From NCBI RefSeq assembly GCF_001577265.1, contig NZ_CP014517.1, forward strand, positions 797,001-861,000: DNA of 64,000 nucleotides. The letters run 5' to 3'. The notes under the pieces are model-generated. The model saw only the letters and a program-made list of their open reading frames with translations. It did no database searches and was not told where the DNA came from. This document shows positions 8,248 through 41,639 of the stretch, piece after piece. Origin of the DNA: Variovorax sp. PAMC 28711. GTDB taxonomy: Bacteria > Pseudomonadota > Gammaproteobacteria > Burkholderiales > Burkholderiaceae_C. Position 1 is the first letter of the stretch. Every line of letters begins with the position of its first letter. The translations under genes and the position numbers were made by a program.

Positions 8248-8296
8248 GCCACTCTCCTTGCCGGCTGCAAGCCGGCGGTCGCGCGATGGTACCGGG

Positions 8297-8545
8297 TCAA
8301 CGGCTGGCGGTGTAACCGACCGTCATCGCGTTGGAGCCACGATTCGCCGCGCCGGCATACCCCGGAACCGCGTTCGATTGCGCCGTCGCCTCGGCCGCCG
8401 CGCGCAGCTCGGCTTTTTGAACTTGCGATCGCGCGACGAGCGCCATGCTGGCCGCAAGCGCGATCACCGCGCAGACCAGCGCGGCGAGGAGCAATTTTTG
8501 AAAGGGGGAGAGGGCCCGGTCGCCGCCGTGATCCCAGCTGGTCAT
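8297..8545 (-). CDS. Small single-pass membrane protein, unknown function
   Basis: An 82-residue protein from the ATG at 8545, which has a GGAAA ribosome site; a longer reading from 8590 adds a non-conserved stretch. Residues 14-37 (PFQKLLLAALVCAVIALAAS region) form one transmembrane helix, followed by a short polar, Ala-rich segment that includes QVQKAELRAAAEATAQ. No family is recognised. It lies between the zinc peptidase and dcd genes in the same direction, but with gaps of 49 and 115 bases, so cotranscription is uncertain. Confidence 0.5.
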   Translation of the reverse strand: MTSWDHGGDRALSPFQKLLLAALVCAVIALAASMALVARSQVQKAELRAAAEATAQSNAVPGYAGAANRGSNAMTVGYTASR

Positions 8546-8660
8546 GTGATTTCCTTGGAGCGCGCCAGTGCGCGGTTCAGGCGAAAGCATGCGGGTGCCG
8601 GAGAAGCCGACTCGGTAGCGCCCAACGCAATCCCCTGTAGGAACGGGGCGCGGCGGTCGG

Positions 8661-9233
8661 TCAGGCCCTCGGCAGCGTCACACCTTGCTGGCCCTGGTAC
8701 TTGCCGCCGCGGTCCTTGTAGCTAACCTCGCAGACATCGTCCTTGTCGCTTTCGAAGAAAAGCACCTGTGCGCAGCCCTCGCCCGCGTAGATTTTGGCGG
8801 GCAGCGGCGTCGTGTTGCTGAACTCGAGCGTCACGTAGCCTTCCCATTCAGGCTCGAACGGGGTCACATTGACGATGATCCCGCAGCGGGCATACGTGCT
8901 CTTGCCGAGGCAAATCGTCAGCACGTTGCGCGGAATACGGAAGTACTCGACGGTGCGTGCCAGCGCGAAGCTGTTGGGCGGAATGATGCAGAAGTCACCG
9001 TGCATGTCGACGAAACTTTTCTCGTCGAAGTTCTTCGGGTCGACCACCGTGCTGTGGATGTTGGTGAACACCTTGAATTCAGGCGCACAGCGGATGTCGT
9101 AGCCGTAGCTCGAAGTCCCGTAGCTGATGATCTTGTGACCATCGCTTTCGCGCACCTGGCGCGGCTCGAACGGCTCGATCATGCCGGTCTGCTCGGCCAT
9201 GCGCCGGATCCACTTGTCACTTTTAATGCTCAT
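8661..9233 (-). CDS. dcd: dCTP deaminase
   Basis: Dcd deaminates dCTP to dUTP, the entry to dTMP synthesis in many Gram-negative bacteria. The ATG at 9233 gives the family start [20 protein letters not shown] and a 190-residue protein, close to the usual size. Key segments are [13 protein letters not shown], the central [19 protein letters not shown] with the conserved Arg, [16 protein letters not shown], and the catalytic-glutamate region [20 protein letters not shown]. The C terminus [15 protein letters not shown] is typical. Part of a run of minus-strand nucleotide genes, but probably a separate housekeeping unit. Confidence 0.95.
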
Positions 9234-9290
9234 GTCGGGGTGTCCTTCTCGGGCCGCCATTTTAGGCAGCGCCGAACCGGCGACCTCCGA

Positions 9291-10583
9291 TCAGTTCGGC
9301 AGCGCCTGCGAAATCACGGCGCGCTCGATCAGCCGGTCGTCGCCGAGCACGATCATTGCGAACAGCAGTTCTTCGAGGTTCGTCGCCAGCGCCGTCTTGC
9401 GCGCGAGCAGCGGCGTGGCCTTCGGGTCGATCACGACGAAGTCGGCTTCGCAGCCCGGCTGGAGATTGCCGACGACGCCTTCAAGCCCCAGCGCGCGCGC
9501 GGCGCCGCCCGTGTGGCGCCACCAGAGCTGCGACGGCGCGATGCTGACACCCGGCTTGGTCTGGCCTTCGCGGCCCACGTAGTAGGCGGCGAGCATGGTC
9601 GCGAAGGGGCTGAAGCTGGTGCCGCCGCCCACATCGCTCGCCAGCCCGTAGCGGTAGTCGACGCGGTCCGCGCCCTCAAAGTCGAAGAAGCCGCTGCCCA
9701 GGAACAGGTTGCTGGTCGGGCTGACGGCCGACGCCGTTTTCGTCTCGCGCATGAGCTGGCGGTCGGCGTCGTCGAAGTGGATGCAATGCGCGTAGACGGC
9801 GCGCTCCCGCATCAGACCGAAGCCGGTGTAAACGTCGAGGTACGAGCGCGCCTGGGGGAACAGCTCGCGCGCCCACGCCACCTCGTCCTTGTTCTCGGCG
9901 ACGTGCGAGTGAATCCAGGTATCGGAATACTTCGCCGCCAGCTCGCCGGCACCCTGCAATTGCGCGTCGGTGCTGGTGGGGGCGAAGCGCGGCGTGATCG
10001 CGTAGCCAAGCCGATCGACGTTGTGCCAGCGGCGGATCAGGGTTTCGGTGTCGACCAGGCTCTGCTCGGTGTTGTCGCGCACGCCGTCCGGCGAATGACG
10101 GTCCTGCAGCACCTTGCCCGTGATCATCCGCAGCTGCCGTTTTTGCGCACTCTCGAAAAACGCGGTGACAGACGCCGGATGCGAGGTCGCAAAAGTGAGC
10201 GACGTGGTCACGCCGTTGCGCATCAGTTCGTCGAAAAACACCTCGGCCACCTCCGCCGAATGCGCTGGATCGGCGAAGCGGCTCTCGGCCGGAAAGGTGT
10301 AGTTCTCGAGCCAGGGCAGAAGGCCTTCCGACGGCGCGCCGATGATGTCGGTCTGCGGAAAGTGGATGTGCATGTCGATGAAGCCAGGCGCGAGGATGCG
10401 GCCGGGCAGATCGGTGACCGCCACGTCGACGTGGTGCGGCGCCACGGCGGCATGGCTGCCGGCATCAATGACCCGCTGGCGGCCTTCGGTATCGGGCCCG
10501 ACCACCAGCAGGCCGTCTTCGTCGTAGAGCGCTCGACCCTCGGGGTCGAAGCGGAGCAATGCGGCGCGGTAGGCTTTTTTCAT
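9291..10583 (-). CDS. guaD: Guanine deaminase (amidohydrolase family)
   Basis: Converts guanine to xanthine. A 430-residue amidohydrolase from the ATG at 10583. Zinc-site motifs: PGFIDMHIHFPQ at 66-77 (His72, His74), later HSHVAENKDEV, VYAHCIHFDD, and the Asp motif SDVGGGTSFSPF. The sequence PQTDIIGAPSEGLLPWLENYTFPAE (in part) is typical of guanine deaminase rather than of other amidohydrolases. It is downstream of the adenine deaminase and acyl-CoA synthetase genes on the same strand, 70 bases after the latter. Its product, xanthine, is the substrate of the XdhAB enzyme encoded about 12 kb away. Confidence 0.93.
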   Translation of the reverse strand: MKKAYRAALLRFDPEGRALYDEDGLLVVGPDTEGRQRVIDAGSHAAVAPHHVDVAVTDLPGRILAPGFIDMHIHFPQTDIIGAPSEGLLPWLENYTFPAESRFADPAHSAEVAEVFFDELMRNGVTTSLTFATSHPASVTAFFESAQKRQLRMITGKVLQDRHSPDGVRDNTEQSLVDTETLIRRWHNVDRLGYAITPRFAPTSTDAQLQGAGELAAKYSDTWIHSHVAENKDEVAWARELFPQARSYLDVYTGFGLMRERAVYAHCIHFDDADRQLMRETKTASAVSPTSNLFLGSGFFDFEGADRVDYRYGLASDVGGGTSFSPFATMLAAYYVGREGQTKPGVSIAPSQLWWRHTGGAARALGLEGVVGNLQPGCEADFVVIDPKATPLLARKTALATNLEELLFAMIVLGDDRLIERAVISQALPN

Positions 10584-28364: not shown

Positions 28365-29702
28365 TCAGAGGATCAGCAGCGCGCGGAAGTCGTTGACGTT
28401 GGTGTGCGTCGGCCCGGTCACGAGCAGGTCGCCGATCGCATCGAAGTAGCCATAGGCGTCGTTGCGGTCGAGGTGCGCAGCCAGCTTGCAGCCCTTCACC
28501 TCGGCGCGCCGGAGCGTGTCGGGCGTGACGAAGGCGCCGGCGTTGTCTTCCACGCCGTCGATGCCGTCGGTGTCGGCGGCCAGCGCCCAGACGCCGGGTT
28601 GCCCCATCAGCGCACCCGCCAGGCCCAGGCAGAACTCGCCGGCACGGCCGCCGCGGCCCTTGGGCTGGCCGAGCTGGCGCGGGCGGATCGTCACGGTCGT
28701 CTCCCCGCCCGAAAGGATCACGCAGGGCTTCGAGAACGGCGTGCCGCGGTGCGCCACCGAGCGCGCGAGCGCCGCATGCACCTTGCCGACCTCGCGCGAT
28801 TCGCCTTCGATCTCGTCGCTCAGGATGTGCGCCTCAACGCCGGCCGCCCGTGCCACCGCGGCCGCCGCTTCGAGTGATTGCTGAGGTGTGGCGATCAGAT
28901 GCGTGGTGTGGCCGGCGAACACGGCGTCGCCGGGCTTGGGCGTTTCGAGCGCGCCGCTTTCGAGGTCGGCGCGCACCGTGGCCGGCACCTCGATGCGGTA
29001 GCGGTCGAGGATGGCGAGCGCGTCGGCGCAGGTGGTGGCGTCGGGCACGGTCGGGCCGCTGGCGATCACGGCCGGGTCGTCGCCGGGCACGTCGCTGATC
29101 GTGAGCGTGACGACCTGCGCCGGCGCGCAGGCTGCGGCGAGGCGCCCGCCCTTGACGCGCGACAGGTGCTTGCGCACGCAGTTCATCTCGCCGATGCCGG
29201 CGCCGCTCTCGAGCAGTTGCTGGTTGATGCGCTGCTTGTCGGCCAGCGTCATGCCGTCGGCCGGCAGCGTGAGCACCGCCGAGCCGCCACCGGAAATGAG
29301 GCACAGCACGAGATCGTCCGCTGTCAGCCCTTCGGTCAGCGCGAGGATGCGTTCGGCGGCGCGCAGGCCGGCTTCGTCGGGCACGGGATGCGACGCCTCG
29401 ACCACTTCGATGCGTTGCTTCAGGCCATCGGGCCGCGGCGGCACGTGGCCGTAGCGGGTGACGACGAGCCCCGACAGCGCCGCGTCCGCCGGCCACAGCG
29501 CTTCGAGCGCCTGCGCCATCGAGCCGCCCGCCTTGCCCGCGCCCAGCACCAGCGTGCGGCCTTTGGGCGGGGCCGGCAGGTGCACACCGATGCTGGCCAG
29601 CGGCAGCGCGCGCTCGACCGCCACGCGGTAGAGGTGCTCGAGGAATTCGCGCGGCGCGGTGCGTGCGTCGGGGGTCGGCTGCCCGGAAATCGATGCGATC
29701 AT
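28365..29702 (-). CDS. Glycerate 2-kinase (TtuD/GckA type, MOFRL family)
   Basis: A 445-residue DUF4147 plus MOFRL protein. Marks: LVLGAGKAGGSMAQALE near the N terminus, LCLISGGGSAVLTLPADGMT, NCVRKHLSRVKGGRLA, ISDVPGDDPAVIASGPT, and the C-terminal MOFRL motif CVILSGGETTVTI with ALAADTDGIDGVEDNAGA. The family phosphorylates glycerate to 2-phosphoglycerate (older name hydroxypyruvate reductase). It completes the gcl-hyi-glxR glyoxylate route found 17 kb away and so ties purine carbon to glycolysis. It is divergent from the 8-oxoguanine deaminase gene with a 41-base gap. Confidence 0.88.
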   Translation of the reverse strand: MIASISGQPTPDARTAPREFLEHLYRVAVERALPLASIGVHLPAPPKGRTLVLGAGKAGGSMAQALEALWPADAALSGLVVTRYGHVPPRPDGLKQRIEVVEASHPVPDEAGLRAAERILALTEGLTADDLVLCLISGGGSAVLTLPADGMTLADKQRINQQLLESGAGIGEMNCVRKHLSRVKGGRLAAACAPAQVVTLTISDVPGDDPAVIASGPTVPDATTCADALAILDRYRIEVPATVRADLESGALETPKPGDAVFAGHTTHLIATPQQSLEAAAAVARAAGVEAHILSDEIEGESREVGKVHAALARSVAHRGTPFSKPCVILSGGETTVTIRPRQLGQPKGRGGRAGEFCLGLAGALMGQPGVWALAADTDGIDGVEDNAGAFVTPDTLRRAEVKGCKLAAHLDRNDAYGYFDAIGDLLVTGPTHTNVNDFRALLIL

Positions 29703-29743
29703 GGTTTCTGTCTCCGTTCTGTTTTCATGGATTGTCCCGCGTC

Positions 29744-31137
29744 ATGACCACCTTGCTGATCCGCCATGCCGACTGCGTCGCCACCTTCGACGACGCACGC
29801 ACCGAACTGCGGGACGCGTCGATTTTCGTGCGCGGCAACCTGGTCGAGTCGATCGGCCTCGCTGCCGATCTGCCGCAGACCGCCGACGAAGTGATCGATG
29901 CGCGTGGTCATGTCGTGATCCCGGGCCTGGTCAACACGCACCACCACATGTACCAGACGCTGACGCGCGCGATCCCGGCCGTGCAGGACGCCGAGCTGTT
30001 CTCGTGGCTGCGCGGCCTCTACCCGATCTGGGCCGGCCTCACGCCGGAGATGGTGCAGGTGTCCACGCAAATCGCGATGGCCGAACTGCTGCTCTCCGGC
30101 TGCACCACCAGCAGCGACCATCTCTACATCTACCCGAACGGCGTGCGGCTCGACGACAGCATCGAGGCCGCTCAGGAGATCGGCATGCGTTTCGTCGCAT
30201 CGCGCGGCAGCATGAGCGTCGGCGCGTCGGCCGGCGGCCTGCCGCCCGACAGCGTGGTCGAGCGCGAAGACGCGATCCTGAAAGACACACAACGGCTCAT
30301 CGAAACCTGGCACGACGCCTCGCACGGGTCGATGCTCAACGTGGCCGTCGCGCCGTGCTCGCCCTTCAGCGTGAGCCGCGACCTGATGCGCGAATCGGCC
30401 GCGCTCGCGCGCTCGTTCACCGGGCTCGGCGTGCGGCTGCACACCCACCTGGCGGAGAACGACCACGACATCGCCTACAGCCGCGAGAAATTCAACTGCA
30501 CGCCCGCCGAATACGCGCAGGACCTCGGCTGGCTGGGCGACGACGTCTGGCACGCGCACTGCGTCAAGCTCGACGAGCCCGGCATCGGCCTCTTCGCGCA
30601 AAGCCGGACCGGCGTGGCGCACTGCCCATGCAGCAACATGCGCCTCGCGTCCGGCCTGGCGCCGGTGCGACGGATGATCGACGCCGGTGTGCCGGTCGGC
30701 CTGGGCGTCGACGGCAGCGCGAGCAACGACGGCTCGCACATGCTCGGCGAAGCCCGCCAGGCCTTGCTGATGGCGCGCGTGCGGCGCTCGCTCGACCCGT
30801 TCGGCTGCGATCACGGACCGGCGGAAATGACAGCGCGCGACGCGCTGCGCATCGCAACGCGCGGCGGCGCTGAGGTCCTTGGCCGCAAGGACATCGGCCA
30901 GCTCGCGCCCGGCCTCTGCGCCGACATGGCGCTCTTCGACGTGCGAACGCTCGGGTTCGCGGTGGCGCGGTGCACGACCCGGTGGCGAGCCTGCTGCTGT
31001 GCGCGAGCCCGACGGCAGCCTGGACGATCGTGAACGGCCGCGTGGTCGTGCGCGAAGGCCGGCTCGCGACGGTCGATCTCGGTCCGCTGGTGGAGCGGCA
31101 CAACGTGCTTGCCCTGCAACTGGCCGGCACGCGCTAG
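29744..31137 (+). pseudogene. 8-oxoguanine deaminase (amidohydrolase), frameshifted near the C terminus
   Basis: Deaminates 8-oxoguanine to urate. The ATG at 29744 starts MTTLLIRHADCVATFDD; metal-site motifs are PGLVNTHHHMYQ (about 60-71), HTHLAENDHDI, HAHCVKLDEPG and LGVDGSASND. The family follows Pseudomonas PA0142, shown to be an 8-oxoguanine deaminase (established). At 30961-30962 the G run is one base short: as given, the frame runs on to a stop near 31033. One more G restores GGAVHDPVASLLLCASP and the natural end LALQLAGTR at 31137. Only the last 58 or so residues are affected. A sequencing error is plausible. Confidence 0.82.
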
Positions 31138-31150
31138 GCGCGGTGGCGCG

Positions 31151-32356
31151 TCACTTCGTGGTGGCGCCTTGTTCGAACCACTTGCCGATCAAGGCGCGTT
31201 CGGCGTCCGTGATCCCCGTCGCGTTGTTCATCGGCATGATCTTCGTGACCACCACCTGCTGGTAGATGCCTTGCGCATGCGCCGCCACCTGGTCGGGCGA
31301 ATCGACGCGCACGTTCTTCATCTGCATCGCCGTGCCGTGGCACATGTAGCAGCGCTGCTCCAGCACCTTCTGCACGTCGCCGAACGCCACCTTCTGCACC
31401 ACCGCGCCGGCCACCGGCGCAGCGACAGGCTCGGGCTTCATCCAGACGATGGTGAAGCCGAGCACCGCGATGCCGAACAGCGCATACGGCAGGGGATGCT
31501 TGGCGTTGCCCAGCTTGAAGCGATGCCGCACCACGAAGAACTGGCGAATCGCCGCGCCGCCCAGCATGATGAGCAGCAGCACGATCCAGTTGTACTTGTG
31601 CGTGTAGGTGAAGCTGTAGTGGTTGCTCAGCATCGCGAAGAGCACCGGCAGCGTGAAGTAGGTGTTGTGCACGCTGCGCTGCTTGCCGCGCTGGCCGTGC
31701 ACCGGGTCGACCGGACGGCCTTCGCGCAGCGCGGCGACGTTCTTGCGCTGGCCCGGAATGATCCAGAAGAACACGTTGCCGCTCATGGTCGTGGCCATCA
31801 TCGCGCCGACCAGCAGGAAGGCCGCGCGCCCGGCGAACCAGTGGCACGCAAGCCAGGTCGCGAAGCAGATGAAGAGCGCGATCAGCACGCCGACGATGGT
31901 GTCGCCGTTCTTGCGCTTTCCGAAGACCTGGCAGATGCCGTCGTAGACCATCCAGAACACGACGAAGAAGGCCAATGCGACGCCGATGGCGGCACCCGGT
32001 TGCCAGTCCATCTTGGACTTGTCGATGAGGTACGTGCTCGCGTTCCACAGGTACGACATCGTGAAGAGCGAGAACCCGGTGATCCAGGTGGTGTAGCTCT
32101 CCCAGTAAGACCAGTGCAGGTGGTCCGGCACCTTCTTGGGCGCCAGCAAGTACTTCTGCATGTTGTAGAAGCCGCCGCCGTGCACGGCCCACTGCTCGCC
32201 GCCCACGCCCTTGTCGAGCGATTCGGGGTCGAGCGGCCTCTCGAGGCTGTTGTCCAGCATCACGAAGTAGAAGGAAGCGCCGATCCAGGCCACCGCGGTG
32301 ATCACGTGGACCCAGCGCAGCAGCAGATTGGCCCAGTCGAGGTAGTAACTTTCCAT
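31151..32356 (-). CDS. puuD: Membrane urate oxidase (urate hydroxylase) with cytochrome c domain
   Basis: A 401-residue inner-membrane enzyme that oxidises urate to 5-hydroxyisourate. Residues 1 to about 305 form eight or so helices of the PuuD membrane domain (LLLRWVHVITAVAWIGASFY, with conserved His17; GFYNMQKYLLAPKKVPDHLH). The C-terminal domain is a c-type cytochrome with C336-YM-C339-H340 and a distal Met in KIMPMNN. Electrons should pass to the respiratory chain rather than to oxygen as peroxide. It converges on the 8-oxoguanine deaminase gene, and both products feed urate use. A perfect GTGTATACAC palindrome is in its upstream region. Confidence 0.95.
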   Translation of the reverse strand: MESYYLDWANLLLRWVHVITAVAWIGASFYFVMLDNSLERPLDPESLDKGVGGEQWAVHGGGFYNMQKYLLAPKKVPDHLHWSYWESYTTWITGFSLFTMSYLWNASTYLIDKSKMDWQPGAAIGVALAFFVVFWMVYDGICQVFGKRKNGDTIVGVLIALFICFATWLACHWFAGRAAFLLVGAMMATTMSGNVFFWIIPGQRKNVAALREGRPVDPVHGQRGKQRSVHNTYFTLPVLFAMLSNHYSFTYTHKYNWIVLLLIMLGGAAIRQFFVVRHRFKLGNAKHPLPYALFGIAVLGFTIVWMKPEPVAAPVAGAVVQKVAFGDVQKVLEQRCYMCHGTAMQMKNVRVDSPDQVAAHAQGIYQQVVVTKIMPMNNATGITDAERALIGKWFEQGATTK

Positions 32357-32496
32357 GTGCCTTCAGCCTTGGCGACGTGTGGAAACGCCGCGAGAGGTTT
32401 TGCGTCTGCTCACCACTGCGGGCGCTGTAAGCAGAGAAAGTGCCGCGAACGCAGGTCGTGATGACCTGGCTCCGCTGCGGCTTGTTGTGGACCGGA

Positions 32497-32506
32497 GTGT
32501 ATACAC
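32497..32506. promoter_or_regulatory. GTGTATACAC palindrome upstream of puuD, candidate GntR operator
   Basis: A perfect 10-base palindrome in the 184-base gap between the xdhC stop and the puuD start, about 140 bases before the puuD ATG. The core TGTATACA occurs two more times, both beside purine genes (34326-34333 and 41632-41639). FadR/GntR-family operators are typically short AT-rich palindromes of this kind. The local GntR protein encoded at 34363-35028 is the natural candidate to bind it; this is inference. Confidence 0.6.
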
Positions 32507-32540
32507 GTTGCTTGCGTGGGAAGGTGATTTTCGAGCGTGG

Positions 32541-33347
32541 TCAGTGCAAACCCTGCAACAACTGTGCCGCCACCGCCACAGCGATCACCTCGGGCTCCTT
32601 GCCGCCGATGCCCGGCACGCCGATCGGGCAGGTGATGCGCGCCATTTCGTCTTCAGAAAAACCCCGCGCTTCGAGGCGATGCCGGAACGTCGCCCACTTC
32701 GTCTTGCTGCCGATGAGGCCGACATACGGCAGGTCGCCCGTCTCGCGCAAACGCTTCAGGCAGGCGATGACGATGTCGAGGTCCTCGGCATGGCTGAAGC
32801 TCATGATCAGCACGCGCGAGCCGGGCGCGAGCTGCGCCACCGCGTCCTGAACCGGCTCGGAATGCTCGGTCTGGACCTGGGCCGGCACCTCCGTCGGAAA
32901 GACGCCGTCGCGGCTGTCGATCCAGCGCACCGAGAACGGCAGCGACGCCAGCAGGCGCGCGAGTGCCGCACCTACATGCCCGCCGCCGAACAGCGCGACC
33001 GGCGGCAGCCGTGCCACGAGTTCTTCCCGGAGCGCCGCGCGGTCCGCCGCCGTCACGCGCTGGTACGCGAGGAACATCACGCCGCCGCAGCACTGGCCGA
33101 GACTGGGCCCAAGCGCGTAACGCATGACGTCGTCGACGGAACGCTCGCCGCCCAAAATTTCGCGCGCGATCTGCGTGGCCTGGAATTCGAGCTGCCCACC
33201 GCCGATGGTCGCCGTGAGGCCGTCGGCCCACACCGCCATCCAGGTGCCGGCCTCGCGCGGCGCCGAGCCCTGAGTCGCGGTGACGCGGACCAGCACGGCG
33301 TCCTCGCGCTGCAATCTGGCCAGCAACTCGTCGACGAATCCGGTCAT
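32541..33347 (-). CDS. xdhC: Xanthine dehydrogenase accessory protein XdhC
   Basis: A 268-residue protein that binds the molybdenum cofactor and delivers it, sulfurated, to XdhB. The ATG at 33347 gives MTGFVDELLARLQREDAVLV. Marks: RVTATQGSAPREAGTWMAV, IGGGQLEFQATQIA, QCCGGVMFL (conserved Cys pair), a Rossmann loop LFGGGHVGAALARLL, and the end CPIGVPGIGGKEPEVIAVA. It is separated from xdhAB by about 6.5 kb, which is unusual since xdhABC is commonly contiguous. It may be cotranscribed with puuD, although a 184-base gap with its own palindrome suggests a separate promoter there. Confidence 0.93.
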   Translation of the reverse strand: MTGFVDELLARLQREDAVLVRVTATQGSAPREAGTWMAVWADGLTATIGGGQLEFQATQIAREILGGERSVDDVMRYALGPSLGQCCGGVMFLAYQRVTAADRAALREELVARLPPVALFGGGHVGAALARLLASLPFSVRWIDSRDGVFPTEVPAQVQTEHSEPVQDAVAQLAPGSRVLIMSFSHAEDLDIVIACLKRLRETGDLPYVGLIGSKTKWATFRHRLEARGFSEDEMARITCPIGVPGIGGKEPEVIAVAVAAQLLQGLH

Positions 33348-33400
33348 GTCGGAATCTTCCGGTTGCCCGCCCGTCGGCGCACCACTGTATAAATCCGCCG

Positions 33401-33925
33401 ATGACTTTGACGACCCGCTCGCGCCGCACCGTTTTTGCCCTCGCCCGCTGCGGCGCCCTGCTCGCCCCACTGTGGCTCGCCGCCTGCGGCAGCACCGGCC
33501 CGCATGCACCCATCACTTCGCCGGTGCCCGGCCAGCTGAGCGACGCCACGCCGCAAGCGGCGATTCCCGGCAAGGCACCGCGCGCCTCTGCCGCCGCCAC
33601 GCCGCGCGACTACCGTCGCGATGCGGCGCGCCACATCTACGAAGCCAACAAGGCACGCATCTACGCCGGCCAACTGCCGCCGATCCTCTATGCGGTCGGC
33701 ACGCTGCAGGTGAACCTCGACGCCAGCGGCAAGGTGCTGTCGATGCACTGGATGCGTGCGCCCAAACACGCGCCGGAAGTCATCGCCGAGATCGAGCGCA
33801 CCGTGTTGGCGGCGTCGCCCTTCCCTGCAGCGACGCAGTTGGGCAAGGTCACGTGGACCGACACCTGGCTCTGGGACAAGGGCGGACATTTTCAGCTGGA
33901 CACCCTGACCGAAGGCCAACTCTGA
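33401..33925 (+). CDS. Predicted lipoprotein with a TonB C-terminal-like domain
   Basis: A 174-residue protein with a basic N terminus, a hydrophobic stretch and the lipobox LAAC (Cys29). After a Pro/Ala-rich tether, residues about 70-165 resemble the energy-transducer (TonB C-terminal) fold: LPPILYAVGTLQVNLDASGK, then SMHWMRAPKHAPEVIAEIER. No partner ExbB/ExbD gene is nearby and there is no transmembrane anchor other than the lipid, so a true TonB role is unlikely. It converges on uraH with one base between the two genes. Confidence 0.55.
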   Translation: MTLTTRSRRTVFALARCGALLAPLWLAACGSTGPHAPITSPVPGQLSDATPQAAIPGKAPRASAAATPRDYRRDAARHIYEANKARIYAGQLPPILYAVGTLQVNLDASGKVLSMHWMRAPKHAPEVIAEIERTVLAASPFPAATQLGKVTWTDTWLWDKGGHFQLDTLTEGQL

Positions 33926-33926
33926 C

Positions 33927-34277
33927 TCACGAACCCCGGTAGGTGGAATAACTCCACGGGCTCACAAGCAGGGGCACGTGGTAGTGCTGGTCGGTGCGCG
34001 CCACGCCGAAGTCGAGCGACACCTTGCCGAGGAAGTTCGGCTCCGGCAAGGTCACGCCGAGCTTGCCGAAATAACCCGCAACGTCGAAAACCAGGCGATA
34101 GGTGCCGACCTTGATCGTGTGGTTGTCGTAAAGCGGCGCATCGCTCCGGCCATCGGCGTTCAGCGTGAAACGCTTGACCAGCGTGGCCTCGTCGCCGCGG
34201 GTCGTGAACAGTGCCACTTCCATGCCGGCGGCCGGTCCGCCATGCATCGTGTCCAGTACGTGAGTGCTCAGGCCCAT
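33927..34277 (-). CDS. uraH: 5-hydroxyisourate hydrolase (transthyretin-like)
   Basis: Converts 5-hydroxyisourate, the product of PuuD, to OHCU. 116 residues, the standard size. Active-site residues are visible: His6 in LSTHVLDT, Arg44 in NADGRSDAPL, the histidine region DQHYHVPLL, and the C-terminal signature SYSTYRGS. There is no signal peptide, so it is cytoplasmic. Divergent from the GntR gene; the 85 bases between them hold a TGTATACA palindrome. Confidence 0.95.
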   Translation of the reverse strand: MGLSTHVLDTMHGGPAAGMEVALFTTRGDEATLVKRFTLNADGRSDAPLYDNHTIKVGTYRLVFDVAGYFGKLGVTLPEPNFLGKVSLDFGVARTDQHYHVPLLVSPWSYSTYRGS

Positions 34278-34325
34278 CGGTCAACTCCTGTGAATGAGGG
34301 GATCATATATTTCAGTCGACAAAAG

Positions 34326-34333
34326 TGTATACA
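34326..34333. promoter_or_regulatory. TGTATACA palindrome between uraH and the GntR gene, candidate operator
   Basis: A perfect 8-base palindrome flanked by GACAAAA (34318-34324) and TTTTGTC (34338-34344), which gives a larger, slightly offset dyad. It lies 37-30 bases before the GntR ATG and 48 bases before the uraH ATG on the other strand, so one bound dimer could control both genes and give autoregulation. Confidence 0.65.
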
Positions 34334-34362
34334 GATTTTTTGTCTGGGACTATCATCAAAAA

Positions 34363-35028
34363 ATGGATTCGACCACCACGCGCTCTATCGTCGATGCGCT
34401 CACCAAGGCGATTGTGGAACACCGGCTCCAGCCCGGCAGCAAACTCGCCGAGCAAAAGTTGGCAGATCATTTCGGCGTCTCGCGCACGTTGGTGAGGCAA
34501 GCTTTGTTCCAGCTCTCGCAAAACAGGCTGATCCGTCTCGAGCCAGCGCGTGGGGCCTTCGTCGCGGCCCCCGCCGTGGACGAAGCCAGGCAGGTGTTTT
34601 CGGTGCGCCGCATGCTCGAAGCCTCGATGGCCCGCGAGTTCTGCCGCACCGTCACGCCGGGAAAGATCAAATCGCTCAGGGAGCATGTGGCGCTGGAAAA
34701 GGCAGCGGTCGCGGGGGAAGACATTTCCGATCGCACCGAACTGCTGGGCGACTTTCACGTTCGCATGGCCGAACTCATGGGCAACACCGTTTTGGCACAA
34801 ATTCTCGGAGAACTGATTTCGCGCTGCGCGCTCATCACGCTGATGTATCAGACAGCGAGCGCAGCCGAACATTCGAATGATGAGCATGCCGACATCGTGA
34901 AAGCGCTGGCGGCCAGGGACGAAGAACGCGCAGTGCGCCTGATGACCGAACACCTCGAGCACGTCGAAGCCCAACTGACTTTCGACCGCAAGATTCCGAC
35001 CAACGACATCTCTCTCGCCCTGTCATGA
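34363..35028 (+). CDS. GntR family regulator (FadR/FCD type) of purine catabolism
   Basis: A 221-residue regulator from the ATG at 34363. The winged helix domain is at residues 10-70 (AIVEHRLQPGSKLAEQKLAD, FGVSRTLVRQALFQLSQNRL, IRLEPARGAFVA). The rest is an all-helical FCD effector domain, with the metal/ligand segment GDFHVRMAELMGN. Its stop overlaps the puuE start as ATGA, so it is the first gene of the puuE-uraD/aah-M20 unit. It most likely senses a urate- or allantoin-pathway intermediate and binds the TGTATACA sites seen here, at puuD and at the NCS1 permease gene (inference). Confidence 0.88.
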   Translation: MDSTTTRSIVDALTKAIVEHRLQPGSKLAEQKLADHFGVSRTLVRQALFQLSQNRLIRLEPARGAFVAAPAVDEARQVFSVRRMLEASMAREFCRTVTPGKIKSLREHVALEKAAVAGEDISDRTELLGDFHVRMAELMGNTVLAQILGELISRCALITLMYQTASAAEHSNDEHADIVKALAARDEERAVRLMTEHLEHVEAQLTFDRKIPTNDISLALS

Positions 35029-35977
35029 CCGACAACTCCTCACTTTCCGTCTACCCCGCGACATGGTCGGCTACGGCCGCGACGTGCCGCACGCGCAATG
35101 GCCCGGCGGCGCGAAGATCGCCGTCCAGTTCGTCCTCAACTACGAGGAAGGCGGCGAGAACAATCCGCTTCACGGGGACCCGACCTCCGAGACCTTCCTG
35201 TCGGAACTCGTCACCGCGCAAGCCTACGAAAACCGCCACATGACGATGGAGTCGATGTACGAATACGGCTCGCGCGCCGGCGTGTGGCGCATCCTGCGCG
35301 AGTTCGAATCGCGCGGCCTGCCGATGACCGTTTTCGCCGTCGGCATGGCGCTGCAGCGCTACCCCGAACTGCTCGACACCTTCCTAAAAAACGGCTACGA
35401 GATCGCCAACCACGGCCTGCGCTGGATTCATTACCAGAACCTGCCCGAGCAGAACGAGCGCCGCCACATGGGCCTCGCCACGCATGTGCTGAAAGACATG
35501 ACCGGCGGGCAGTGGCCGCTCGGCTGGTACACCGGGCGCGACAGCCCCAACACGCGCCGCCTCCTGGTCGACCAGGGCGGCTACGAATACGACAGCGACT
35601 ACTACGGCGACGACCTGCCCTTCTGGATGGAAGTCGCCAAGAGCGACGGCGACATGGTGCCGCATCTGGTGGTGCCCTACTCGCTCGACTGCAACGACAT
35701 GCGCTTCGTCCAGGCGCAAGGCTTCAACACCGGCGATCACTTCTTCAACTACCTGAAGGACAGCTTCGACGCGCTCTACGCCGAGGGCGACACCGCGCCC
35801 AAGATGATGAGCGTCGGCATGCACTGCCGCCTGCTCGGCAAGCCGGGTCGTATCGGGTCGCTCCAGCGCTTTCTCGACTACGTCCAGAGCCACGAAAAGG
35901 TTTGGGTCTGTCGCCGGATCGACATTGCCCGGCACTGGAAGAAGGTGCATCCGTTCACACCAAAAAAGGGAGACTGA
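35025..35977 (+). pseudogene. puuE: Allantoinase PuuE (polysaccharide-deacetylase type), N-terminal frameshift
   Basis: Hydrolyses allantoin to allantoate without a metal-amidohydrolase fold. The natural start is the ATG at 35025, overlapping the GntR stop (MTDNSSLSVYP). A C run at 35054-35057 is one base short, which breaks the frame; with five Cs the text would read YPRDMVGYGRDVPHAQWPGG and continue without fault to 35977. Motifs: VQFVLNYEEGGENN, FAVGMALQRYPELL, EIANHGLRWIHYQ and SVGMHCRLLGKPGR. Translation from the internal ATG at 35063 would lose only about 14 residues, so function might survive even if the indel is real. Confidence 0.88.
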
Positions 35978-35980
35978 CAA

Positions 35981-37756
35981 ATGACACTGACCCTCCAGCA
36001 GCTCAATGCTGCGACGCCGACCGAGGCGGTGGCGCTGCTCGACGGCATCTACGAGCATTCGCCGTGGGTGGCCGAGGCCGCGCTCGCGTCGCGGCCGTTC
36101 CGCTCGCTCCAGCACCTGAAGCATGCGATGGCCCAGGCCGTGACCCATGCGACGGCAGCGCAGCAACTGAGCCTCATCCGTGAGCACCCGGAGCTGGCAG
36201 GCAAGCAGATGGAGGGCCACACACTCACGGCCGAATCGACGAACGAACAGAGCAAGGCCGGCCTCACGAATTGCACGACGGAGGAACTCACGCAAATTCG
36301 CCGGCTGAACACGACCTACGGCGCGAAGTTCGGATTTCCGTTCATCCTGGCGGTGCGCGGACCACGCGGCCTGGGCCTCTCGAAAGCGGAAATCCTCGCG
36401 ACCTTCGAGCGACGCATTCACCACCATCCTTCCTTCGAACGCGGTGAAGCGCTGCGCAACATCCACCGCATCGCGGAGATCCGCCTGAACGACAAGTTCG
36501 GCGTGGCGCCTCTGCTCGGCAACGAAGTGTGGGATTGGCAGGAGCAGCTGTCGGTGCACACCGACCCGGGCTACGCCGAACTCGGGCAGCTCACCGTGAC
36601 CTACCTCACCGATGCCCACCGTGCCTGTGCCGCGCAGATCGCGCAAGGCATGCGCGACTGCGGCTTCGACTCGGTGCAGATCGACGCGGTCGGCAACGTG
36701 GTGGGCCGTTACGAGGGCACCACGCCCGGCGCGAAAACGCTGCTTACCGGCTCGCACTACGACACCGTGCGCAATGGCGGCAAGTACGACGGTCGCCTCG
36801 GCATCTTCGTGCCGATGGCGTGCGTGCGCGAACTTAAATTGCAGAATCGCCGCCTGCCGTTCGCCTTCGAAGTGGTCGGCTTCGCGGAGGAGGAAGGCCA
36901 GCGCTACAAAGCGACCTTCCTCGGCTCCGGCGCGCTCATCGGCCACTTCAACACGGCATGGCTCGACCAGCAGGACGCCGACGGCATCACGATGCGCGAT
37001 GCCATGGCGCATGCCGGCCTCACGCTCGCCGACATCCCGAAAATCCAGCGCGATCCGTCGAAATACCTCGGCTTCGTCGAGGTGCACATCGAGCAAGGTC
37101 CGGTGTTGACGGAGCTTGACCTGCCGCTCGGCATCGTCACGTCCATCAATGGCAGCGTGCGCTACGTCGGCGAAGTATTCGGCATGGCGAGCCACGCAGG
37201 CACCACCCCGATGGACCGCCGCCGGGACGCTGCAGCGGCCGTGGCCGAACTCATTCTTTTCGCAGAGCAACGCGCCGCGACAGACGGCGACTCGGTCGCG
37301 ACGGTCGGCATGCTGCAGGTGCCCAATGGCTCCATCAACGTGGTGCCGGGCCACTGCAAGTTCAGCCTGGACATCCGCGCGCCGAACAACGGCCAGCGCG
37401 ACAGCCTGGCCGACGACATCGTCTCCGCGCTGAAAGACATCTGCGAGCGCCGCAGCGTGCGCTACACGCTCGAAGAAACCATGCGCGCGGCCGCAGCACC
37501 CAGCGCGCCCGACTGGCAGCAACGCTGGGAGAAGGCGGTCGACACGCTCGGCATCCCGCTCTTTCGCATGCCGAGCGGCGCGGGCCACGACGCGATGAAG
37601 CTGCACGAAGTGATGCCCCAAGCCATGCTTTTCGTGCGCGGCATCAATTCCGGCATCAGCCACAACCCGCTCGAATCGAGCACCAACGACGACATCCAGC
37701 TTTCGGTACAAGCGTTTCAGCTTTTGCTCGACAACCTGGCCGAAGAAATCAAATGA
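35981..37756 (+). CDS. Fusion of OHCU decarboxylase (UraD) and allantoate amidohydrolase
   Basis: A 591-residue two-domain enzyme. Residues 1 to about 165 are UraD: the catalytic His is in REHPELAGKQ (His69) and the FGFPFILAVRG motif is present; it converts OHCU to (S)-allantoin. Residues about 180-591 are an M20-type amidohydrolase: GSHYDTVRNGGKYDGRLG, GFAEEEGQRY, EVHIEQGPVL, SHAGTTPMDRRRDA, SGAGHDAMKL and GISHNPLESS carry the metal and substrate residues; it cleaves allantoate. Two non-consecutive steps flank PuuE, whose gene lies three bases upstream. The fusion is known from Burkholderiales. Confidence 0.93.
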   Translation: MTLTLQQLNAATPTEAVALLDGIYEHSPWVAEAALASRPFRSLQHLKHAMAQAVTHATAAQQLSLIREHPELAGKQMEGHTLTAESTNEQSKAGLTNCTTEELTQIRRLNTTYGAKFGFPFILAVRGPRGLGLSKAEILATFERRIHHHPSFERGEALRNIHRIAEIRLNDKFGVAPLLGNEVWDWQEQLSVHTDPGYAELGQLTVTYLTDAHRACAAQIAQGMRDCGFDSVQIDAVGNVVGRYEGTTPGAKTLLTGSHYDTVRNGGKYDGRLGIFVPMACVRELKLQNRRLPFAFEVVGFAEEEGQRYKATFLGSGALIGHFNTAWLDQQDADGITMRDAMAHAGLTLADIPKIQRDPSKYLGFVEVHIEQGPVLTELDLPLGIVTSINGSVRYVGEVFGMASHAGTTPMDRRRDAAAAVAELILFAEQRAATDGDSVATVGMLQVPNGSINVVPGHCKFSLDIRAPNNGQRDSLADDIVSALKDICERRSVRYTLEETMRAAAAPSAPDWQQRWEKAVDTLGIPLFRMPSGAGHDAMKLHEVMPQAMLFVRGINSGISHNPLESSTNDDIQLSVQAFQLLLDNLAEEIK

Positions 37757-38976
37757 CAGATTACGCCAAGCTCGATGCCTGGATCGACGCCCATTTCGAC
37801 GAGGAAGTGAAGTTCTTGCAGCAACTGGTGCAAGTCCCCACCGACACGCCACCTGGCAACAACGCGCCGCACGCCGAGCGCACGGCCGAGCTGCTCAAGG
37901 ATTTCGGCTTCGACGCCGAAAAGCACGCGGTGCCGACCCAGGAGGTGAAGGACTACGGCCTCGAATCGATCACCAACCTGATCGTTCGCCGGAAGTACGG
38001 CGAAGGCCGAACCGTGGCGCTCAATGCGCACGGCGACGTGGTCCCGCCGGGTGACGGCTGGACGCACGACCCCTACGGCGGCGAGATCGACAACGGCAGC
38101 CTGTACGGACGCGCCGCCGCCGTGAGCAAGAGCGACTTCGCGAGCTTCACCTTCGCGTTGCGCGCGCTCGAAGCGGTCGCCAGGCCAGTCAAGGGCAGCG
38201 TCGAACTGCACTTCACTTACGACGAAGAGTTCGGCGGCCTGCTCGGCCCGGGCTGGCTGCTGAAGAACGGCCTCACCCAACCCGACCTGATGATCGCGGC
38301 CGGCTTCAGCTACGAAGTCGTCACTGCGCACAACGGCTGCCTGCAGATGGAAGTGACGGTGCACGGCAAGATGGCACACGCCGCCATCCCGAGCACCGGC
38401 GTCGACGCCCTGCAGGGCGCGACGAAAATCCTGAACACGCTGTATGCGCAGAACGCGCTCTATCAAAAGGTGACGTCGAAGGTCGAGGGCATCACGCACC
38501 CCTACCTGAACGTCGGGCGCATCGAAGGCGGCACCAACACCAACGTCGTGCCGGGCAAAGTGGTGTTCAAGCTCGACCGCCGGATGATCCCGGAAGAAAA
38601 TCCGGTCGAAGTCGAAGCCAACATTCGCCGGGTGATCGCCGATGCGGCGGCTGAAAGTGCCGGCATCACGGTCGAGATCAAGCGCACGCTGCTGGCCAAT
38701 GCGATGCAGCCGCTGCCGGGCAACCAGCCGTTGGTCGAAGCCATTCAGAAACACGGCGTCGAACTCTTCGGCGAGCCGATCAAGGCCATGGGCACCCCTC
38801 TCTACACCGACGTGCGCCTCTATGGCGAGGACGGTATCCCCGGCGTCATCTATGGTGCCGGTCCGCGCACGGTGCTCGAATCGCATGCCAAGCGCAACGA
38901 TGAACGCGTGGTGCTCGAAGACCTGCGCCGTGCGACAAAGGTGATTGCGCGCACGCTGGCCGACCTGTTGGCCTGA
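37753..38976 (+). CDS. M20 family metallopeptidase-like protein with an altered metal site
   Basis: A 407-residue ArgE/DapE-fold protein, starting with an ATGA overlap on the fused gene, so translated with the allantoin enzymes. Metal-site text: NAHGDVVP (His93, Asp95) and TYDEEFGG (Glu158/159) are kept. The bridging aspartate normally found in GRGxxDMK is replaced: here GRAAAVSKSD puts Val124 at that place. A late His is in LESHAKRNDE. The substrate is unknown. The location fits a role on ureidoglycolate or another carbamoyl compound from purine breakdown, but this is inference only. Confidence 0.8.
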   Translation: MTDYAKLDAWIDAHFDEEVKFLQQLVQVPTDTPPGNNAPHAERTAELLKDFGFDAEKHAVPTQEVKDYGLESITNLIVRRKYGEGRTVALNAHGDVVPPGDGWTHDPYGGEIDNGSLYGRAAAVSKSDFASFTFALRALEAVARPVKGSVELHFTYDEEFGGLLGPGWLLKNGLTQPDLMIAAGFSYEVVTAHNGCLQMEVTVHGKMAHAAIPSTGVDALQGATKILNTLYAQNALYQKVTSKVEGITHPYLNVGRIEGGTNTNVVPGKVVFKLDRRMIPEENPVEVEANIRRVIADAAAESAGITVEIKRTLLANAMQPLPGNQPLVEAIQKHGVELFGEPIKAMGTPLYTDVRLYGEDGIPGVIYGAGPRTVLESHAKRNDERVVLEDLRRATKVIARTLADLLA

Positions 38977-39004
38977 CCGTCGGCCCGCCGCACCGATGCC
39001 GCCG

Positions 39005-39904
39005 TCAAGCGGATGGTGGCCGGTTGCCGAGCAACAGATCCCTAAAAGCCGCCGCCGCCGGCGATGGCGAATTGCCCGGTGCGCGCAGCAAGGTCATGGT
39101 GCGCGCGATCTGCGGTCGTCCAACCGCTCGCACTTCCAGCCCGTGCCACTGCGCCAGCGGCCGCAGCGCCATCGTGACGACGGCGATGCCGAGGCCTTCG
39201 CGGGCGAGACCCATCATGGTCCACGGCAGCGCGATCTCGAACGCATAGTCCAGCGTGAGGCCGCGCTCGGCCAGTTTCTCTTCCAGCACCCGACGCACCG
39301 GATTGCCCGGCAGGTAGCCGATGACCGGCTCGCGCGCCACCTGCGACCACTCGAGCGTGCGGCGCGCACACAGCGGATGGTCGGGTGGCAGCACCGCCAC
39401 GAACTCGTCGGCCGACATGGCCGTGCTCACCAGGTCGGTGCGCGCATCGGTCTGGGTCGCGATGCCCAGGTCGGCCGCGCCGCTGCGCACCAGCGCATGC
39501 ACTTCGTGCTCGGGCACGTCGTGCAGGACCACGCGCACGCCCGGGTGCGATTCACGGAAAGCGCGGATCGTCGGCGGCAACAGCAGCGCGCACTGGACGT
39601 TGGGCGCCGCCACCGTGACGCGGCCGCGCGAGAAGCGTGCAAAGTCGCGCGCATCGTCGAACAGATGGTCCCAGTCGGCCACGAGCCGGAGCGCCGCCGG
39701 CAACAACGCCGCGCCGGCCTCGTTGACACGGCAGGCGCGCGTGTGGCGATCGAAGAGGCGGGTGCCAAGTTGTTTTTCGAGCTTGACCAGCGACGCGCTG
39801 AGCGACGACTGCGACATGCCGAGCCGCTCGGCCGCCCGGGTGAAATGGCCGCTTTCCGCCAGCGCGACGAAGACGCGAAGCTCTGCCAGTGACGATGCTT
39901 TCAT
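39005..39904 (-). CDS. LysR family regulator, divergent from the NCS2 permease
   Basis: A 299-residue LysR protein from the ATG at 39904. The helix-turn-helix is at about residues 5-62 (LRVFVALAESGHFTRAAERL, GMSQSSLSASLVKLEKQLGT). The effector domain begins GRVTVAAPNVQCALLLPP. It is divergent from the NCS2 permease gene with a 122-base gap, the standard LysR-target layout, so it probably controls that permease. Its 3-prime end faces the M20 gene. The effector may be a purine base; not shown by the sequence. Confidence 0.87.
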   Translation of the reverse strand: MKASSLAELRVFVALAESGHFTRAAERLGMSQSSLSASLVKLEKQLGTRLFDRHTRACRVNEAGAALLPAALRLVADWDHLFDDARDFARFSRGRVTVAAPNVQCALLLPPTIRAFRESHPGVRVVLHDVPEHEVHALVRSGAADLGIATQTDARTDLVSTAMSADEFVAVLPPDHPLCARRTLEWSQVAREPVIGYLPGNPVRRVLEEKLAERGLTLDYAFEIALPWTMMGLAREGLGIAVVTMALRPLAQWHGLEVRAVGRPQIARTMTLLRAPGNSPSPAAAAFRDLLLGNRPPSA

Positions 39905-40026
39905 CGCGAACTCCGATTGATTTATAGGATTGTGCGTCTTTTTCGATTTCTCGCCCGGCCCTATTCTTGCGTCGCCTCGCACGACGACCGTGCCCGCTTT
40001 TGCCCTTCCTCAACCAGGAGTCGCCC

Positions 40027-41514
40027 ATGAGTTCCAGCGTCACGTCCCCCGTGGATCCCGTCGATCAGCGCTTGCCCGGCGGCAAGCTGGCGGCCCTCGG
40101 CCTTCAGCACGTCCTGGTGATGTATGCGGGCGCCGTCGCGGTGCCGCTCATCGTCGGGCGTGCACTCAAGCTGAGCCCCGACGAGGTCGCCTTGCTGATT
40201 TCGGCCGACCTGTTCTGCTGCGGCATCGCGACCCTGATCCAGTCGCTCGGCGCCACGCAATGGTTCGGCGTCAAGCTGCCAGTCATGATGGGCGTGACGT
40301 TCGCATCGGTCGCGCCGATGGTGGCCATCGCGAACGCGAATCCGGGCGCCGCAGGTGCCCAGCTGCTCTTCGGCTCGATCATCGGCGCCGGCATCATTTC
40401 GATACTGATCGCGCCGATGGTGAGCCGCATGCTGCGGTTCTTTCCGCCGGTGGTCACCGGCACCATCATCGCGGTCATCGGCATCAGCCTGATGCGCGTG
40501 GGCATCAACTGGATCTTCGGCAACCCGTTCGGCCCGACGGCACCCAACGTGGTCGACCCGGCCTACGTGAAGTGGCTGGCCGACGTGACATCGCCCGGCA
40601 GCGCGACGCCCGCCGTGCCCAAGGGCTTCGCGATCATGCCGACCGTGCCGAACCCCAAGTACGCCGACCTCACCGGCGTGGCCATCGCCGCGCTGGTTCT
40701 GGTGTCGATCCTGTTGATCGTCAAGTTCGCCAAGGGCTTCATCGCCAACATTTCGGTATTGCTCGGCATCGTGATCGGTGCGGTCGTCGCCACGGCCATG
40801 GGCATCATGACGTTCGAAAAAGTGGGCAAGGCCGCATGGATCGACGTGGTGCTTCCCTTCCACTTCGGCATGCCGTTGTTCGACCCGCTGCTCATCCTGA
40901 CGATGACGCTGGTGATGATCGTCGTGATGATCGAATCGACCGGCATGTTCCTGGCGCTCGGCGAAATGACCGACCGCAAGATCAGCCAGCAAGACCTCGC
41001 GCGCGGTCTGCGCACCGACGGCCTTGGTACGCTGATCGGCGGGATCTTCAACACCTTTCCCTACACGAGCTTCTCGCAGAACGTGGGGCTCGTGGCGGTC
41101 ACCGGCGTGAAGAGCCGTTTCGTCTGCGTGGCCGGCGGCGTGATCCTCATCGTGCTGGGCCTGTTGCCCAAGATGGCCGCACTGGTCGAGTCGCTGCCGA
41201 CCGTGGTGCTCGGCGGCGCTGGACTGGTGATGTTCGGCATGGTGGCCGCCACCGGCATCCGCATCCTGTCGGGCGTGGACTTCAAGACCAACCGGCAGAA
41301 CGCGATGATCGTCGCCGTGTCGATCGGCGTCGGCATGATTCCGCTGATCGCCCCCAACTTCAAGCAGTGGATGCCGCACGGCATTCATTCGCTGATCGAG
41401 TCCGGCATCCTGCTGACCTCCATCGCGGCCGTGGCGCTCAACCTCTTCCTCAACGGCGCGAAGCACGACGAGGCCGCGATCATCGCGGCGGCCAAACAGG
41501 CGGAAGCGCACTGA
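40027..41514 (+). CDS. NCS2 family nucleobase (xanthine/urate/uracil) permease
   Basis: A 495-residue inner-membrane carrier with about 14 helices. The ATG at 40027 is preceded by CAGGAG. Family marks: the QH motif in ALGLQHVLVMYAGAVAVPL, the signature SQNVGLVAVTGVKSR and the helix VVMIESTGMFLALGEMTDRK, with the conserved Glu. Members take up xanthine, urate or uracil with protons. The neighbourhood favours urate or xanthine. A LysR gene is divergent and a strong terminator follows 25 bases after the stop, so it is a single-gene unit. Confidence 0.9.
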   Translation: MSSSVTSPVDPVDQRLPGGKLAALGLQHVLVMYAGAVAVPLIVGRALKLSPDEVALLISADLFCCGIATLIQSLGATQWFGVKLPVMMGVTFASVAPMVAIANANPGAAGAQLLFGSIIGAGIISILIAPMVSRMLRFFPPVVTGTIIAVIGISLMRVGINWIFGNPFGPTAPNVVDPAYVKWLADVTSPGSATPAVPKGFAIMPTVPNPKYADLTGVAIAALVLVSILLIVKFAKGFIANISVLLGIVIGAVVATAMGIMTFEKVGKAAWIDVVLPFHFGMPLFDPLLILTMTLVMIVVMIESTGMFLALGEMTDRKISQQDLARGLRTDGLGTLIGGIFNTFPYTSFSQNVGLVAVTGVKSRFVCVAGGVILIVLGLLPKMAALVESLPTVVLGGAGLVMFGMVAATGIRILSGVDFKTNRQNAMIVAVSIGVGMIPLIAPNFKQWMPHGIHSLIESGILLTSIAAVALNLFLNGAKHDEAAIIAAAKQAEAH

Positions 41515-41538
41515 ACAGCACAGCAATCCGCCCTTTTC

Positions 41539-41563
41539 AAAGCCCCGCAATGCGGGGCTTTTT
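41539..41563 (+). terminator. Rho-independent terminator after the NCS2 permease
   Basis: The stem AAGCCCCGC / GCGGGGCTT (41540-41548 with 41552-41560) with a short A/T loop is followed by TTT. It begins 25 bases after the NCS2 stop and separates that gene from the NCS1 permease unit, whose own operator lies 70 bases further on. Confidence 0.85.
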
Positions 41564-41631
41564 CAATTTCTGGCGCGAAGTTTGCTTATTGGAATCTCCG
41601 GGTTAACCGCTATTCGAGTTTCGGACTGGTT

Positions 41632-41639
41632 TGTATACA
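41632..41639. promoter_or_regulatory. TGTATACA palindrome upstream of the NCS1 permease, candidate GntR operator
   Basis: The third perfect copy of TGTATACA in the window, 74 bases before the NCS1 permease ATG and downstream of the NCS2 terminator. It is preceded by GGTT and followed by GTCC. The location matches an operator over or near the promoter. It links NCS1 permease expression to the same regulator as puuD and uraH (inference). Confidence 0.6.

Follow-up and report, generated by a model that had tools for sequence, protein, structure and literature searches.

Among described regulators, the closest counterpart of the system considered here is Atu1419, an FCD-type regulator of Agrobacterium fabrum that binds the palindrome ATGTATACAT and contacts it through Ser44, Arg45, Thr46, Arg49 and Glu34 (passages of PMC7797058). 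Among RNA elements the nearest parallel is the Xanthine-I (NMT1) riboswitch, which in proteobacteria is associated in cis with genes for purine oxidation (passages of PMC7373994 and PMC8266621). The present analysis concerns a purine-breakdown locus within 64,000 nucleotides of Variovorax sp. PAMC 28711 (contig NZ_CP014517.1, positions 797,001 to 861,000; this whole stretch is referred to as the window), in which the octamer TGTATACA recurs before the genes for urate oxidase (puuD) and an NCS1-family permease and between those for hydroxyisourate hydrolase (uraH) and a GntR/FCD protein (gntR), and in which the puuD leader carries a conserved structured RNA. With a probability of roughly 0.88, TGTATACA is the operator core of this GntR/FCD protein, a local repressor of purine-ring breakdown, and the leader RNA of puuD constitutes a separate layer. 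The elements of the proposed system are as follows.

32498..32505, no strand: site 1, TGTATACA, 141 bp ahead of the start codon of puuD and a proposed operator of its promoter
34326..34333, no strand: site 2, TGTATACA between uraH and gntR, 29 bp from the gntR start and 48 bp from the uraH start, holding the -35-like TATACA of both divergent promoters
41632..41639, no strand: site 3, TGTATACA, ahead of the NCS1 permease gene, whose start is 67 bp away
34363..35028, plus strand: gntR, GntR/FCD regulator and proposed repressor, with Pfam GntR and FCD matches above cut-off
32397..32484, minus strand: conserved structured RNA in the puuD leader, with two hairpins and a pseudoknot, defined by alignment, covariation and a covariance model

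A preliminary description of the window had reported three TGTATACA palindromes, rare enough that fewer than one would be expected, and had proposed that they form a three-site regulon of the local GntR protein. All three lie exactly where it placed them, the gene positions are also right, and the rarity is confirmed by 100 dinucleotide shuffles of the window, which give a mean of 0.05 copies and never reach three. Four copies, and none of the reversed pattern, occur in the entire genome, a single contig of 4,316,152 bp, so that 9.1 kb contains three of the four. A genome-wide count had been suggested as a check, and it adds only one copy, beside another FCD-GntR gene, with no scatter over unrelated genes. 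One-mismatch copies, by comparison, show no excess (112 versus 104 for the control); thus, within a single genome exact copies alone are informative, and degenerate sites were ruled out as extra members of the regulon.

The fourth copy (G000:C1:3409484) lies about 10 bp upstream of the likely start, as read from the sequence by the author, of a gene with Rieske and VanA_C domains. This gene is followed by another GntR+FCD gene and a ferredoxin-reductase-like gene (L016, about 7480-10380, near 3409484), an arrangement resembling a vanillate-demethylase-like locus with a common operator core. MdcY of Acinetobacter is a further regulator of the TGTATACA type.

Conservation of the octamer was followed in the 120 genomes of the family, 87 of which have a match to the GntR protein at E ≤ 1e-30. 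Sixty loci, taken as regions of up to 20 kb around the best GntR matches after that of the genome itself and totalling 1.09 Mb, contain TGTATACA 110 times and the reversed octamer not once, whereas 47 other palindromes of like composition occur 0 to 32 times each. The octamer is kept at the equivalent places: exact copies occur at most 400 bp upstream, at gntR in 55 of the 60 loci, at uraH in 51 of 54 and at puuD in 26 of 48. Of the five remaining gntR loci, a copy with a single mismatch is present in all but L092. For other genes the counts are 7/23 (NCS2 permease), 2/3 (NCS1 permease), 3/17 (ttuD), 2/5 (SDF symporter), 2/13 (xdhA-like) and 1/53 (M20 peptidase); the value for xdhC (9/41) was counted from a longer, mechanically called open reading frame, and the copies inspected there are the uraH/gntR copy. 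No copy falls within the same distance upstream of puuE (57 loci), the uraD-allC fusion (54), the tonB-like reading frame (28), the 8-oxoguanine deaminase gene (13) or the LysR gene (9). Of the 110 copies, 94 are placed no further than 400 bp ahead of a gene among the 17 that were scanned.

The same picture emerges from 80 named loci, 36 from Variovorax and the rest including Xenophilus, Polaromonas, Hydrogenophaga, Pseudacidovorax and Curvibacter, where TGTATACA occurs 168 times and the control not at all. Within 300 bp upstream it precedes gntR in 77 of 79 cases, uraH in 76 of 77, puuD in 56 of 65, the NCS1 gene in 11 of 16 and the NCS2 gene in 11 of 21, with ttuD (1/48) and the SDF gene (0/9) at the other extreme. 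Conversely, 13 genomes have puuD but no GntR match at the above threshold, and none of them carries TGYATRCA within 300 bp upstream of puuD. In G056 (L264, 1403-2036) the GntR orthologue matches as two pieces in different frames, with 68% and 47% identity, and is possibly a broken copy; TGTATACA before puuD is kept there. Together, rarity, clustering and conservation in relatives support the proposed three-site regulon, and there is a high likelihood that the three palindromes are operators of the local GntR repressor.

Alignment of the gntR sites yields a symmetrical extended operator, AAAGTGTATACACTTT; what is conserved is a palindrome of 16 bp whose symmetrical flanks are AAAG/CTTT. A scan for promoters in 32300-34500 returned two sigma-70-like sites, against 0.2 in shuffles, and both take the TATACA of site 2 as their -35, one on each strand. 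The corresponding -10-like elements are listed here.

34351..34356, plus strand: -10-like TATCAT of gntR, 17 nt past the site-2 -35; a similar element is found in relatives
34302..34307, minus strand: -10-like TATGAT of uraH, 18 nt past the site-2 -35

Because the same hexamer is the -35-like element of both divergent promoters, one bound dimer would cover both, and repression is the simplest mechanism. A dimer at site 2 would thereby shut off uraH on one side and gntR-puuE-uraD/allC on the other, including the regulator's own gene, while site 1 would act at the puuD core promoter and site 3 ahead of the NCS1 importer; a metabolite of the purine pathway would release the protein from DNA. Transcription of puuD would start just before the RNA, so that its message would begin with about 88 nt of pseudoknotted RNA, forming a second and separate control layer in cis. 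The gntR promoter has a further feature. A site stands no more than 60 bp from the gntR start in 41 loci. In 31 of them TATN[AC]T intervenes between the two, 25 times at 6-7 nt from the start codon, and none of the 41 has a Shine-Dalgarno-like sequence; the closeness of this element to the start, together with the missing Shine-Dalgarno-like sequence, suggests that gntR is probably translated from a leaderless message (window 34351-34365).

The protein itself combines an N-terminal GntR helix-turn-helix (PF00392, 58.3 bits, cut-off 27) with a C-terminal FCD domain (PF07729, 89.2 bits, cut-off 24.3). Thus, the GntR/FCD part of the earlier assignment to a FadR-type gene stands, whereas the subgroup may be a different one: effector domains have six helices in VanR and seven in the FadR subgroup (passages of PMC7797058), and the AlphaFold2 model (mean predicted local distance difference test score, pLDDT, 78) has six, in residues 72-203, with a short seventh helix at 215-220 inside a stretch of pLDDT below 50. 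On this model the protein looks more VanR-like than FadR-like. In a Foldseek search the top rank went to a Brucella GntR protein, and Atu1419 with DNA came sixth, at 22% identity in the structural match. Among NCBIfam models the best is TIGR03338 (phnR_burk), to which the protein does not belong (133.7 bits versus a cut-off of 271.5); the GntR+FCD protein at the fourth site also matches this model best, at 93.2 bits. The table passages of a proteobacterial regulon survey (PMC5343134) contain no purine-degradation GntR.

The likeness to Atu1419 extends over several features. Both Atu1419, which is of VanR type, and the protein here join a GntR helix-turn-helix to an FCD domain, both have sites at their own divergent promoter, and all three sites in the window, compared as sequence, carry a core identical to that of ATGTATACAT. 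The outer A/T bases are not matched, being mostly G/C here within AAAG/CTTT. S40, R41, T42, R45 and E30 correspond to the five Atu1419 contact residues by spacing alone, and are invariant in 22 orthologues. The two systems differ in that Atu1419 controls hydroxycinnamate/vanillate genes, with folate proposed as effector, and in the metal site. When the metal ligands of Atu1419 (three His plus Asp/Asn) are mapped by spacing, H132, H175 and H197 are invariant in the 22 sequences, while the Asp/Asn ligand typical of metal-binding FCD domains, Asn137 as Zn ligand in Atu1419, is replaced by an invariant Leu128 four positions before H132. The pocket therefore differs from the standard metal site.

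The RNA of the puuD leader is 88 nt long, starts 13 nt downstream of site 1, and is conserved in 36 of 49 puuD genes. Its structure, consisting of two hairpins (P1 and P2) and a pseudoknot (GCGGnGC with GCCCGC), was evaluated in a MAFFT alignment, A3, of 33 of the 36 leaders, which leaves out L061, L089 and L103 for their long inserts and trims three bases from L106. In this alignment 97.0% of cells are paired, compared with 89.9% in shuffles, and 11 pairs show double changes, compared with 3.9; no shuffle out of 500 equals it on even one of the five measures, and the structure scores far lower whenever it is slid, the comparison being somewhat favourable in that the structure was derived from the same sequences. 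A larger alignment, A6, of 80 rows (from which L172, a match in a coding region, and the duplicate L103 are excluded, and to which L177-L180 are added) contains double changes in all seven P2 pairs. The pseudoknot, which lies outside the covariance model, is 97.9% paired there, with changes of G-C to A-U in two rows and of C-G to U-A in three. A competing inner helix, joining positions 13-16 to 54-57, is paired in 79, 62, 41 and 60 of the 80 rows, whereas the pseudoknot pairs reach 72 to 80; the pseudoknot is for that reason preferred and the helix was rejected, though the two could alternate.

Model R1 of this element matches at 77 places in 72 of the 120 family genomes, puuD being present in 97, and is single in each genome except five. 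Seventy-eight loci were inspected, of which L103 and L167 are the same place, leaving the 77. All but six (71 of 77) precede puuD; of the others, four stand before an NCS2 xanthine/urate-type permease gene, the fifth stands before a gene for a periplasmic binding protein, and the sixth, a weak match, falls within a coding region. At the periplasmic binding protein gene both the leader RNA and TGTATACA are present (L164, 305-380), and this gene is possibly part of a purine-related ABC importer. An exact TGTATACA lies within 80 nt upstream of the RNA at 50 of the 77 places, and a copy with at most one change at 65, compared with 1.7% of random 80-mers from the same loci. Among the named loci, R1 matches 64 of 80. 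The RNA is also found without the octamer, and in two genomes of family f18 before Urate_ox_N genes, and is thus an element separate from the operator. Beyond the family, scans under stricter filters, in which weak matches are lost, gave matches in 9 of 250 genomes of the order (seven of the same family, including the genome itself, and the two of f18) and in 3 of 321 of the class, all of the same family. The plasmid collection has one R1 match, in a 1.24-Mb Variovorax replicon, with no annotated feature beneath it.

Comparison with known RNAs leaves the element on its own. At gathering score Rfam has no match in the window, L048 or L056; at E ≤ 5, positions 20000-47000 of the window give one unrelated miRNA-model match elsewhere and none at the RNA; and at E ≤ 10 the leaders of the window and L066 give weak opposite-strand matches to HCV_X3 (0.96), sR28 (6.7) and PK-BYV (4.2), all far below cut-off. 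The Xanthine-I riboswitch, for all its association with purine oxidation genes, differs from the two hairpins and pseudoknot of the puuD leader in sequence and layout, and was ruled out on these grounds and for want of a credible Rfam match; two junction pieces of its crystal RNA have no match at 32397-32484 with up to three mismatches. Among the literature matches listed, drawn mostly from outside subscription journals so that absence is unproven, none deals with the GntR regulator or with a puuD/urate leader RNA. Searched by term, PMC8632094 and PMC11109978 yielded no passage about such a leader RNA, and the searched passages of the PuuD discovery paper (PMC4562309) hold none on a GntR protein or a riboswitch.

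Taken together, the element looks like a new covarying RNA family, and it is probably cis-regulatory, controlling puuD and, in some relatives, a permease. There is a fair chance that it is a riboswitch for oxidised purines; the narrower proposal, a new riboswitch class of Comamonadaceae-type bacteria sensing urate or a near relative, falls somewhat short of an even chance. That the RNA is instead a protein-binding site or an mRNA-stability element, without metabolite sensing, is likewise a little less than evenly probable: neither a terminator nor Shine-Dalgarno sequestration has been established, and the folding energy of single sequences is unusual in only two of six, both hairpins appearing in the best fold of four of six. 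On the other side, the RNA has the usual profile of an aptamer: nucleotides of its loops are invariant, it contains a pseudoknot, and the genomes that carry it mostly have a single copy, located in cis to the gene for urate oxidase or for a xanthine/urate-type permease.

With respect to the operator, the chief alternative to ownership by the neighbouring gntR is that the octamers serve another FCD-GntR protein, or several. The genome has the same octamer at the VanA-like locus with its own FCD-GntR gene, Atu1419 binds the same core, and the contact residues are common, a second FCD-GntR protein also reading SRTPVR. The presence of this core at other FCD-GntR loci makes TGTATACA a common FCD-type operator core, such that its assignment to the neighbouring gene depends on linkage. 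Several further observations weigh against the local repressor. Three genomes without a GntR match (G027, G092 and G096) each retain one TGTATACA near uraH/puuE; such copies, seen at L263, L267 and L269 in genomes with no match at E ≤ 1e-30, may be relic sites or those of another FCD regulator. G020 and G030, with paralogue-level matches only (about 40% identity), have TGCATACA at puuD, the exact puuD site is absent in 22 of the 48 loci, some of which have TGCATACA in its stead, and in G008 a paralogue of FCD type with 35% identity likewise has TGTATACA upstream. The 80 named loci are not independent, 36 being Variovorax and many close relatives. At the level of the site, the outer flanks of site 3 are poor, and the extended pattern finds sites 1 and 2 but not 3; with up to three mismatches genome-wide, it finds these two and one other place, against two places for the control. 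In the protein, Arg31, a further DNA contact of Atu1419, is replaced by Lys27. The alternative is nevertheless unlikely, given how tightly the octamer is linked to the neighbouring gntR across the 60 loci and that the site at puuD is missing from each of the 13 genomes lacking a GntR match. It is very improbable that the octamers act solely as promoter hexamers (TATACA) and not as operators: TATACA is indeed the best -35 match on both strands at site 2, and at puuD it is placed like a -10 with the RNA starting shortly after, but the conserved unit is the 16-bp palindrome with its flanks, which takes a -35 position at gntR and a -10-like position at puuD.

If the operator belongs to the local GntR repressor, the genes that open the purine ring gain, over dozens of genera, a regulator, an operator of 16 bp and a list of targets. 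The more valuable of the two finds is the leader RNA. Were it a urate riboswitch, the urate oxidase mRNA would be controlled twice within about 110 nt, in transcription by the GntR repressor at TGTATACA and then post-transcriptionally by the RNA. Since it is a covarying, pseudoknotted RNA without a credible Rfam match and is tied almost solely to urate oxidase and the permease, urate sensing by it is directly testable, and the element could serve as a part of a uric acid biosensor.

The purine gene names given in the preliminary description were upheld by family searches (Pfam and NCBIfam), with the following assignments around the sites.

31151..32356, minus strand: puuD, membrane-type urate oxidase; Pfam Urate_ox_N, 428 bits
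32541..33348, minus strand: xdhC, xanthine dehydrogenase accessory gene; TIGR02964, 291.5 bits
33927..34277, minus strand: uraH, hydroxyisourate hydrolase; TIGR02962, 120.1 bits
35063..35977, plus strand: puuE, allantoinase; TIGR03212, 485.2 bits
35981..37756, plus strand: fusion of 2-oxo-4-hydroxy-4-carboxy-5-ureidoimidazoline (OHCU) decarboxylase (uraD) with an allantoate-amidohydrolase-like M20 peptidase; family searches
37753..38976, plus strand: second M20-family amidohydrolase; Pfam Peptidase_M20
39967..41514, plus strand: NCS2 xanthine/urate-type permease; Pfam Xan_ur_permease, 347.7 bits
41707..43149, plus strand: NCS1-family permease; Pfam Transp_cyt_pur, 291.6 bits, above cut-off

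The start of xdhC at 33348 is the author's reading of the sequence, the mechanical frame extending to 33509. The NCS2 gene has no site with up to one mismatch within 420 bp upstream. For the NCS1 permease the best NCBIfam matches are to NCS1 and allantoin permease models, all below cut-off (TIGR00800, 315 versus 353.1; PRK11375, 288.8 versus 620). A conserved reading frame at 33401-33925, labelled tonB-like and without a Pfam or NCBIfam match, is present in 28 of the 60 loci, mostly between xdhC and uraH. Finally, the family match of the 8-oxoguanine deaminase frame (29663-31033) ends at residue 435 of 456, and beyond this point another frame looks coding (30930-31140), which suggests a possible frameshift at the end of the gene.

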